A stretch of DNA of 64,000 bases from assembly GCF_017104565.1 (NCBI RefSeq), contig NZ_JAAGPD010000049.1:19041-83040 (forward strand), written 5' to 3'. Shown in pieces: positions 19,418 through 39,707 of the stretch (position 1 is the stretch's first letter; each line of letters starts with the position of its first letter). A model generated the notes under the pieces. The model was not told where the DNA came from. It did not search any database and worked only from the letters and a program-made list of their open reading frames with translations. The translations under genes were made by a program, and so were the position numbers. Source of the DNA: Paraburkholderia sp. Tr-20389. GTDB taxonomy: Bacteria; Pseudomonadota; Gammaproteobacteria; Burkholderiales; Burkholderiaceae.

Positions 19418-19424
19418 CCGCCGC

Positions 19425-19576
19425 TCATTGGGGAGTAGCCGCCCCGCCTCATACCCGCGCAACGGCCAGGCTCATGGCCGGCGAGCGCAGCGTGTGTGAT
19501 TCGCGGGGGCGCCTGTCAACAGACTTGACCGTTGTGGTCATGGCAGACGCAGCCTCTGGCCTGGCGAGACCGATGA
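19425..19576 (+). promoter_or_regulatory. yybP-ykoY (manganese) riboswitch aptamer
   Basis: The conserved GGGGAGTAG is at 19430-19438 and the conserved GCGAGACC at 19564-19571. The P1 helix closes as TCATTGG (19425-19431) with CCGATGA (19570-19576), seven pairs including one G-U. The intervening ~120 bases are variable, as expected for the family. A promoter -10 lies immediately upstream. The downstream stretch 19577-19654 contains GGGCCC (19595-19600) and GGCCCGGGG (19634-19642) around the ribosome-binding site GGGGAA, so translation control by occlusion is plausible. The class is known to sense Mn2+ and often precedes UPF0016 genes, exactly as here. Confidence 0.9.
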
Positions 19577-19654
19577 TCCACTACCGCCGCTCTAGGGCCC
19601 GGCGCGTCGTGGGTCGTCGCTCGCACACATCTCGGCCCGGGGAATCTATCAAAC

Positions 19655-37167: not shown

Positions 37168-37371
37168 TTACAGCGGCTGGATGTTCGCAGCCTGGCGACC
37201 CTTCGGGCCAGCCTTCACGTCGAACGACACGCGCTGGTTCTCCTTCAGCGACTTGAAGCCATCCGCGCGGATCTCCGAGAAGTGCGCGAAGAGATCTTCG
37301 CCGCCCGCGTCGGACGTGATGAAGCCGAAGCCTTTAGCATCGTTGAACCATTTGACGATACCAGTTTCCAT
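37168..37371 (-). CDS. cspA: Cold-shock protein, CspA family
   Basis: A 67-residue single cold-shock domain. RNP1 is KGFGFI and RNP2 is LFAHF, with the usual start [18 protein letters not shown]. It binds single-stranded RNA or DNA and acts as an RNA chaperone. The upstream 406 bases are gene-free and AT-rich, consistent with the long untranslated leader known for temperature-controlled csp genes. A dedicated terminator follows. Which paralogue (A, D or E) cannot be told. Confidence 0.96.
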
Positions 37372-37777: not shown

Positions 37778-38020
37778 ATGCTGTTCGACACCCTTCGCCG
37801 CCTCGCAGCCCACCTGTTCCACTCCACGAAGGGCGCGCCGCTCTCCGACACCACGGCGCAACGCGCGTCGGCACTGGAGTTCGACCCAATGTGGCATGGC
37901 GATCATTGGCAGAACCTGCTGTCTTCCCCAATGGACGCGCGCCACTATGTGATCGAAGATTGGAGCCTGACGCCGGGACTCGAATTCGCGCCCGTCGGTG
38001 CAGATGGAAAGCATCAATAA
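37778..38020 (+). CDS. Hypothetical protein, 80 residues
   Basis: ATG 37778 with GGAG six bases upstream. The product (MLFDTLRRLAAHLFHSTKGAP...) starts with an amphipathic helix and continues with a Trp-rich polar part (FDPMWHGDHWQN, DWSLTPGLEFAP). No signal peptide, membrane helix or known domain is recognised. It is followed by a minus-strand terminator at 38040, so its own termination signal is not evident. It may be a lineage-restricted Burkholderiaceae protein. Confidence 0.65.
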   Translation: MLFDTLRRLAAHLFHSTKGAPLSDTTAQRASALEFDPMWHGDHWQNLLSSPMDARHYVIEDWSLTPGLEFAPVGADGKHQ

Positions 38021-38039
38021 ATGACGCTGTAAGCAGGGC

Positions 38040-38126
38040 AAAAAAAAGCGCGACTCTTGCGAAGTCGCGCCGACAAAGGTTTGGAGATCTTTTTCGTCAA
38101 CGAAAAAGTCTGCTTCGAAAAGCAGA
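38040..38126 (-). ncRNA. Candidate trans-acting small RNA
   Basis: A compact ~87-base minus-strand transcript is predicted from three signals. A -10 box TATACT lies at 38133-38138. Two hairpins follow: 38126-38109 (7 pairs, loop TTCG on the RNA strand) and 38108-38089 (about 9 pairs). An unpaired 18-base linker 38088-38071 reads ATCTCCAAACCTTTGTCG, then a terminator stem of 8 GC-rich pairs (38070-38063 with 38055-38048) and eight T (38047-38040). There is no coding frame with a ribosome-binding site. The exposed CTCC could pair with Shine-Dalgarno sequences. It lies upstream of, and divergent from, the porin gene. The family is unassigned. Confidence 0.78.
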
Positions 38127-38132
38127 GATTTC

Positions 38133-38138
38133 AGTATA
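38133..38138 (-). promoter_or_regulatory. -10 box of the candidate small RNA
   Basis: TATACT on the minus strand, six bases before the first base of the first hairpin. The -35 region (near 38156-38161, CTAATC) does not match consensus, so an activator may be needed. Confidence 0.6.
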
Positions 38139-38543
38139 GCGCCGGTGACGAATTTGATTAGCGTCGACTCTTGCAATCTACTATTGCAAAGCTGGCAACA
38201 ATCGCAATTTGGCGATTTTCGCGTTGTTTCCGCACGTCGTTTCATGTCGTAATTGAACAACGCGCAAAGGTTGACACATAAGGCCGATACTCGCCAATCG
38301 GCCGGAATCCCTTTATCGATAAGGCCTTCCGGCATCTTCCTGATAATTTCCTATCCCGTAATACTTTATTGCTAATTTCGGAACGGCCATCTGGCAGGCG
38401 GCGTCTCTACACTTTGCCTACCCGGAAACGAACGCACGTCGGTCACCGTGCGTAGTTCACGCGATTTGCCTCTCGCAGCAACCGCGTGGAGTTTCCTTCA
38501 AGCCTGGGTTTCCAAAACCCATCCTGTTCTCGGAGTTACAAAG
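38139..38543. other. Divergent regulatory region between the small RNA and the porin gene
   Basis: 405 gene-free AT-rich bases. It contains TTGACA at 38271-38276 without a properly spaced -10, a GATAAT at 38342-38347, a TAATAC at 38359-38364, and a perfect ten-base palindrome TTATCGATAA at 38313-38322 inside a longer imperfect inverted repeat. The porin ribosome site GGAG is at 38532-38535. The palindrome could be an operator; this is not proven. Confidence 0.45.
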
Positions 38544-39707
38544 ATGAAAAAGACTCTCATGGTCGCGGCCCTGTCGGGCGTATTTGCAACGGCGGCGCAT
38601 GCGCAAAGCAGCGTCACGCTGTACGGCCTGATCGATGCCGGCATCACCTACACGAACAACCAGGCAACTGCGCCCGGCCAAGGCCACAGCAACGTCCAGA
38701 TGACGAGCGGCTCGGTGAACGGCAGCCGTTTCGGCCTGCGCGGCGCTGAAGATCTCGGCGGCGGCCTGAAGGCTATCTTCACGTTGGAAAACGGCTTCGG
38801 CATCAACGACGGCACGATGAAGCAGAGCAGCCGTCTGTTCGGCCGTCAGGCGTTCGTTGGTCTGGCAAGCGACCAGTTCGGCGCTGTGACCCTCGGCCGT
38901 CAATATGACAGCATGGTCGACTACGTCGGTCCGCTGGCACTGACGGGCACGCAATACGGCGGCACGCAGTTCGCCCACCCGTTCGACAACGACAACCTGA
39001 ACAACTCGTTCCGCGTCAACAACTCGGTCAAGTACCAGAGCGCGAACTACGCCGGCTTCAAGTTCGGCGCGTTGTACGGCTTCTCGAACCAGGCTGACGG
39101 CTTCGCGAACAACCGTGCGTACAGCGCCGGCGCGTCGTACAGCTTCGCAGGCTTCAACATCGCTGCTGCTTACCTGCAACTGAACAGCAACGGCGCGACG
39201 GGCGCAGCTGCTGCATTCAACGGTTCGGGCGCAGTCACGGGCGACAACACGTTCTTCGCTGGCCGCCAGCAGACGTGGGGCGCAGGCGCGAACTACACGT
39301 TCGGCCCGGCAACCGTCGGCCTCGTGTACTCGCAGACGAACCTGTCGCAATGGGCTGGTATCAACCAGGGCGCATCGGGCAACCAGGGTCTGCAGAATCG
39401 CTTTGGCGGCGACAGCGGCCACTTCCAGAACTACGAAGCGAACGCACGCTACGCTCTGACGCCGGCTATCAGCGTCGCTGGTTCGTACACGTACACGCGT
39501 GCAAGCATCGCTGGCGAGCACCCGCACTGGAACCAGTTCAACCTGCAAACGGCATACGCGCTGTCGAAGCGTACGGACGTGTACCTGCAGGGCGAATACC
39601 AGCAAGTCAGCGACAACTCGGTCGTCAACGCCAACATCAATGGCCTGAACGCTTCGGCGAACGAGAAGCAAGTTGCTGTGACGGCTGGCCTGCGTCACCG
39701 CTTCTAA
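38544..39707 (+). CDS. Gram-negative porin (Omp32/OpcP type)
   Basis: A 387-residue outer-membrane porin with signal peptide (MKKTLMVAALSGVFATAAHA, cut after residue 20) and the opening QSSVTLYGLIDAGITYTNN typical of betaproteobacterial trimeric porins. The barrel ends in GLRHRF with C-terminal Phe, the BAM recognition signal. Loop 3 carries acidic residues. ATG 38544 with GGAG nine bases upstream is chosen; the frame from 38448 is longer than needed. Codon usage is restricted to preferred codons, in line with high expression. It forms a general diffusion channel. Confidence 0.96.
   Translation: MKKTLMVAALSGVFATAAHAQSSVTLYGLIDAGITYTNNQATAPGQGHSNVQMTSGSVNGSRFGLRGAEDLGGGLKAIFTLENGFGINDGTMKQSSRLFGRQAFVGLASDQFGAVTLGRQYDSMVDYVGPLALTGTQYGGTQFAHPFDNDNLNNSFRVNNSVKYQSANYAGFKFGALYGFSNQADGFANNRAYSAGASYSFAGFNIAAAYLQLNSNGATGAAAAFNGSGAVTGDNTFFAGRQQTWGAGANYTFGPATVGLVYSQTNLSQWAGINQGASGNQGLQNRFGGDSGHFQNYEANARYALTPAISVAGSYTYTRASIAGEHPHWNQFNLQTAYALSKRTDVYLQGEYQQVSDNSVVNANINGLNASANEKQVAVTAGLRHRF

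Follow-up and report, generated by a model that had tools for sequence, protein, structure and literature searches.

The window, meaning the whole 64 kb stretch analysed here, carries on its minus strand a small RNA (sRNA) gene that is almost certainly the orthologue of NcS25 (RF02869), predicted to repress a BCAL3473-type porin encoded elsewhere in the genome. The RNA is already known and functionally characterised as NcS25, and its occurrence in a Paraburkholderia-like genome is ordinary. What this analysis establishes is the family identity, the conserved context, and the predicted pairing in the window's genome and in most relatives tested. We infer the start site of ncS25, repression in the window's organism, and help by Hfq.

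Direct reading of the minus strand confirms the outline drawn by a first-pass annotation of the sequence: a TATACT -10 element; two perfect hairpins; a linker containing CTCC; and a terminator with eight T (Table 1). The linker spans 17 nt, or the 18 bases originally given when the terminator's outermost G-U pair is left uncounted. The GC-rich terminator stem extends over 38071-38047, with the U8 tract at 38047-38040. The minimum-energy fold consists of the two hairpins and the terminator stem-loop, with a free energy of -31 kcal/mol (z -3.19), and 1 of 200 shuffled sequences is equally stable. When both strands of the window are scanned for two abutting perfect hairpins of at least 7 bp followed by a terminator, this is the single place found.

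Table 1. Features of the ncS25 locus and copies of a related RNA; positions refer to the window unless a locus is named.
Feature	Position	Strand	Basis or remark
ncS25 sRNA gene	38040..38126	-	full-length RF02869 match (107.8 bits) covers 38126-38039; predicted fold
Hairpin 1, perfect, 7 bp, tetraloop	38109..38126	-	direct reading, fold and alignment
Hairpin 2, perfect, 8 bp, tetraloop, abuts hairpin 1	38089..38108	-	direct reading and fold
Single-stranded linker between hairpin 2 and terminator, holds CTCC	38072..38088	-	direct reading and fold
AAGAUCUCCAA, perfect 11-nt complement of the Shine-Dalgarno region of the predicted target porin	38081..38091	-	core in the single-stranded linker
Intrinsic terminator stem-loop and U8	38040..38071	-	fold
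-10 element TATACT	38133..38138	-	all six bases 90% or more conserved across 141 distinct upstream sequences
Conserved upstream elements: GATTGTTG (38203-38196), GCAATAG (38187-38181), GATTG (38178-38174), TAAT (38160-38157)	38157..38203	-	
Divergent Porin_4 gene in the position of BCAL3008, not predicted as a target	38544..39707	+	domain match and conserved context
Hypothetical gene of 80 codons that converges on ncS25, in the position of BCAL3007	37778..38020	+	
Cold-shock (CspA-type) protein gene, downstream context	37168..37371	-	domain match and conserved context
Second NcS25-like RNA, copies in other genomes of the genus	L241:1501-1577(-), L242:1501-1577(+), L243:1501-1577(+), L274-L285		

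The family assignment comes from a covariance search, which the first-pass annotation had proposed as a check. Against Rfam release 15, the RNA matches RF02869 (ncS025, 'Burkholderia sRNA 25') at 107.8 bits with an E value of 1.5e-18, over model positions 1-85 of 85; the gathering score is 46 bits, which makes the window sRNA a member. It is present as a single copy in this genome. The earlier description of the RNA as unannotated fails, as this curated family comes with published transcript evidence, a deletion mutant and a target. Three other families are rejected. RF02278 (Betaproteobacteria toxic small RNA) resembles the window sRNA as a double-hairpin RNA with CU-rich stretches, as described in the available part of PMC5688073; it scores 17.5 bits, short of the 50 required by its gathering score. 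RF00519 (suhB/mmgR) shows a partial likeness along the linker and terminator, at 19.4 bits (E 0.25) against a gathering score of 41. The score for RF02871 is far under its gathering score. Elsewhere in the window, a yybP-ykoY manganese riboswitch is found at 19418-19598 on the plus strand (59.3 bits).

In the available parts of the published accounts, NcS25 of Burkholderia cenocepacia is an 84-nt RNA located by dRNA-Seq and seen as a Northern band, whose assignment rests on a deletion mutant, and is conserved across Burkholderia, Paraburkholderia and Pandoraea (PMC5688073, PMC10117139). It lies between BCAL3007 and the porin gene BCAL3008, and a gene for an RNA-binding cold-shock protein is found further out (PMC10117139). 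Here, too, the order is divergent porin, then small hypothetical gene and CspA. Length, three-hairpin fold, linker seed and terminator are likewise shared with RF02869 and with NcS25 of B. cenocepacia J2315, and, as in J2315, the best predicted target is a porin paired across the Shine-Dalgarno (SD) sequence and start codon. The differences are limited to small changes of sequence, and the terminator loop of the window sRNA is 3 nt longer than in the Rfam consensus. A terminator shared between NcS25 and its downstream gene is also described (PMC10117139, available part). In contrast to that bidirectional terminator, the plus strand at 38047-38071 has no clear T tract here, and transcription of the small convergent gene may continue across ncS25 in antisense. 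A profile search with that gene returned no Pfam match.

The neighbourhood is conserved among relatives. Where the flank is long enough, a divergent porin is detected at all ncS25 loci but L005 (141 of 142); the small gene is detected at 139 of 145, being absent from four g11 loci, L221 and L240; and the cold-shock gene is found at 125 of 138, being absent from the g11 loci L218-L220 and L236 and from nine others. These counts are of loci rather than of independent genomes, and they leave out four of the fetched loci, L239 and L241-L243, which do not represent ncS25. Genus g11 is presumably Pandoraea, for which a different gene is reported at the place of the cold-shock gene (PMC10117139, available part). 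An RF02869 match (E <= 0.001) occurs in 163 of 299 sampled genomes of the family (153 above the cut-off), distributed over 8 of 25 genera, and in none of 14 control genomes. The exact core pattern of ncS25 is found in 84 stretches, all from Paraburkholderia or Burkholderia sp., and a plasmid search gave a single record, in which the matching 109 bases carry a porin annotation.

Analysis of porin leaders points to one target in the window's genome. There are 58 Porin_4 matches, and the leaders of all were read, with start codons assigned by a simple rule before the duplexes were ranked. Porin L170 (contig C66; start codon at L170 1483) is first of the 58 by both duplex energy and cofold gain. 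Its duplex energy is -45.7 kcal/mol, as compared to a mean of -26.4 (sd 6.0) for the 58 leaders, and none of 1000 dinucleotide-shuffled sRNAs pairs with L170 as well as ncS25 does. Its linker complement is the longest as well, at 11 nt, ahead of others of 9, 9 and 8. The leader, TTGGAGATCTTTCG then ATGAAAAAGTC, pairs from -14 on in two blocks: an 11-nt perfect block with the sRNA linker; and a 14-bp block, including G-U, over the start codon, formed by sRNA nt 17-30 (38110-38097), which run from the 3' end of hairpin 1 into hairpin 2, over its 5' arm and loop. This position, from -14 through the start codon, agrees with the BCAL3473 interaction, which spans -14 to +16 according to the available part of PMC10117139. 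GGAGA upstream of ATGAAAA occurs at 34 places in the genome, and of these L170 alone has GGAGATC. The pairing position, together with similarity and COQ7 linkage among relatives, suggests that L170 may be the equivalent of BCAL3473.

The earlier proposal of a trans-acting, porin-connected sRNA with a CU-rich anti-Shine-Dalgarno seed is right. Its statement that the targets were open is superseded by BCAL3473 in B. cenocepacia and by the equivalent pairing predicted here with a porin elsewhere in the genome; target prediction, another of its suggested checks, places one distant porin first among the 58 leaders. The target could not be seen in the first pass because it lies outside the window. 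In B. cenocepacia, deletion of NcS25 raises BCAL3473 83-fold in planktonic and 27-fold in biofilm cultures, and native NcS25 complements this effect while mutated NcS25 does not (PMC10117139, available part). Repression in that species has been shown to depend on the region of interaction.

In the proposed mechanism, transcription from approximately 38126 to the terminator would yield an RNA of ~84-87 nt. The AUCUCCAA linker would act as the seed on the SD sequence of the BCAL3473-type porin mRNA (C66, L170), and hairpin 2 would then open and pair across the start codon (AUGAAAAAGUC). The resulting two-block duplex, covering -14 to about +11, would block translation initiation and probably expose the porin mRNA to degradation. 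Enteric bacteria repress porins with the sRNAs MicF, MicC, OmrA/B and RybB, whose seeds fall on the translation start region of the porin mRNA. The action proposed for ncS25 is similar, in a different bacterial class; no sequence relationship is claimed.

The predicted pairing can be followed in the best L170 relatives from 25 ncS25-bearing genomes (30 loci). A COQ7 gene adjoins the porin, as at L170, in 17 of these loci, one each in 17 of the genomes. Where the COQ7-linked porin and the sRNA were both read, the cognate SD complement is at least 7 nt in 14 of 16 genomes; the exceptions, G242 and G143, have 6 nt each. The ncS25 copy of G242 (L222) is apparently one base short in the seed, and its SD pairing with the COQ7-linked porin leader is reduced. 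The remaining 8 of 25 genomes have no COQ7-linked porin among the fetched loci, and the best porin match has an SD complement of at least 7 nt in only three of these (G078, G130 and G013), so that target conservation is not shown for this group. In the g11 genomes, sRNA and leader are complementary over the spacer and across the start codon as well, and the strongest energies among the relatives tested belong to two of these three genomes. Swapping partners between the 16 genomes changes the duplex energy from -40.1 to -38.1 kcal/mol, a mean cost of ~2 kcal/mol; this small cost indicates that the sequences are mainly conserved and weakly co-varying.

Structural conservation was assessed with RNAalifold on 97 distinct rows. 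The 13 consensus pairs are formed in 99.2% of cells, as compared to a mean of 96.7% and a maximum of 97.3% in shuffles and 56-81% in slid versions. There are 51 double-change cells in 5 of the 13 pairs (shuffle mean 15, maximum 26), 40 of them from one terminator pair. Hairpin 2 is absent from the consensus of this diverse alignment, and its maintenance rests on single folds. Among 99 distinct sequences, 96 fold into exactly three hairpins and 92 leave the seed open (at least 5 of 6 bases).

The location of ncS25 invites the proposal that it base-pairs with and regulates the adjacent divergent porin. This adjacency is conserved at 141 of 142 loci, and the leader offers a 10-bp match, with G-U, at GAUGAAAAAG over the start codon, along with a 4-bp match at GGAG. 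The 10-bp run had been missed when the match was put at only six bases; the accompanying conclusion, that the match is at chance level, holds. The adjacent porin ranks 47 of 58, 929 of 1000 shuffled sRNAs pair with it equally well, and BCAL3008 mRNA shows no significant change in the NcS25 deletion mutant in the available part of PMC10117139. The neighbour, which had not been regarded as the evident target in the first pass either, is rejected here, and its regulation through base pairing with ncS25 is very improbable. The label 'major porin' given to it is unsupported, as it is a Porin_4 protein, one of 58 in the genome; in B. cenocepacia, the suggested major porin is BCAM1931, not the NcS25-adjacent BCAL3008 (PMC10117139, available part). 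Alternatively, the hairpins could be part of the small convergent gene, at its 3' end, with no independent sRNA, in keeping with the shared terminator described for NcS25 (PMC10117139). The plus-strand stem lacks a following T tract, ncS25 has its own conserved -10 and upstream elements, and the orthologue has a published dRNA-Seq start and deletion-controlled Northern band (PMC10117139, PMC5688073, available parts), which together leave this explanation next to no probability.

A broader regulon deserves more weight, in which NcS25 would repress several porins, L170 plus, for example, L193, L184, L179, L150 and L190, through complements to the linker, the start-codon block, or both. L193 (-40.2) and L184 (-40.0) come next after L170 in duplex energy, and L179 and L193 in cofold gain; linker complements reach 9 nt in L179 and L150 and 8 nt in L190. 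In Burkholderia, the top 100 CopraRNA predictions include 14 porins, although qPCR of five porins in the B. cenocepacia deletion mutant found BCAL3473 alone changed (PMC10117139, available part). Repression of several porins is thus possible and on balance doubtful, and NcS25 acting on the BCAL3473-type porin L170 is the preferred reading.

Upstream of ncS25, most bases of the four boxes in Table 1 (-77 to -31) are 80-100% conserved in the 141 sequences, with a few at 50-60%. A scan of 37950-38560 for the sigma-70 consensus reported no promoter; the -10 is clear and there is no -35 consensus. The boxes were matched to no regulator. They are possibly activator or UP-type sites, and an activator-dependent ncS25 promoter is a reasonable guess. 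Altered ncS25 levels, tabulated for some conditions in the available part of PMC5688073, count for an activator site, whereas the available part of PMC10117139, where NcS25 is called constitutively expressed and is unchanged under nitrogen depletion and in a LysR knock-down, counts against one. A further conserved block, GCGTTG (-137 to -132; window 38258-38263, minus strand), is followed by moderately conserved sequence and may belong to the regulatory region of the porin.

Three genomes contain a second, weak RF02869 match of 29-35 bits. Of 78 genomes of the genus, 42 contain a pattern built from these matches (up to 2 mismatches), and none contains the reversed control pattern. The second RNA is absent from the window's genome, both in the pattern search and with model R1, which gives nothing above 28.5 bits there. 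R1 matches in 89 of 120 family genomes (17 of 25 genera), and only ten matches exceed 75 bits, two of these in another genus, g14; the many near 25-30 bits are not counted as members, and the low matches include the L170 leader in antisense (28.5 bits) and ncS25 of the window's genome (28.0 bits). Beside each of the 15 aligned copies lies a gene that resembles a hybrid histidine-kinase gene carrying HATPase and response-regulator domains, and the three copies tested lie away from the ncS25 porin.

This second RNA is ~75 nt and resembles ncS25 in layout, with a start-codon-like hairpin, the linker GUCUCCAAA and a terminator. Three copies have fold z-scores of -3.60, -1.98 and -1.67, less convincing than the ncS25 fold, and the three copies scanned fall under the RF02869 cut-off with no other Rfam family at E <= 0.1. 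A target pattern gives one match each in 7 of 8 genomes, always the RNA's own antisense strand, and none in the window's genome, which leaves the second RNA with no predicted target. No title among those listed in a literature search refers to it. Common descent with NcS25 is plausible. In genus g18, the sole RF02869-like match of genome G017 (L239:1501-1580, plus strand; 38.6 bits) has neither the ncS25 neighbours nor the kinase, and folds very stably (z -4.85); this RNA could be a third relative of NcS25.

The scientific gain is one further genome that retains the predicted NcS25-porin pairing. The result amounts to a correct rediscovery, in that the raw sequence alone gave the outline of a genuine sRNA, nearly base-exact. 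Two parts may be new, namely the second NcS25-like RNA of the genus and the conserved promoter boxes upstream of ncS25. Tentatively, NcS25 may be one of at least two sibling sRNAs of the genus, the second of which may use this two-block geometry on porin leaders or related ones, and the ncS25 promoter may be activator-driven. If this less than likely proposal is true, porin repression by ncS25 would be regulated rather than constitutive.
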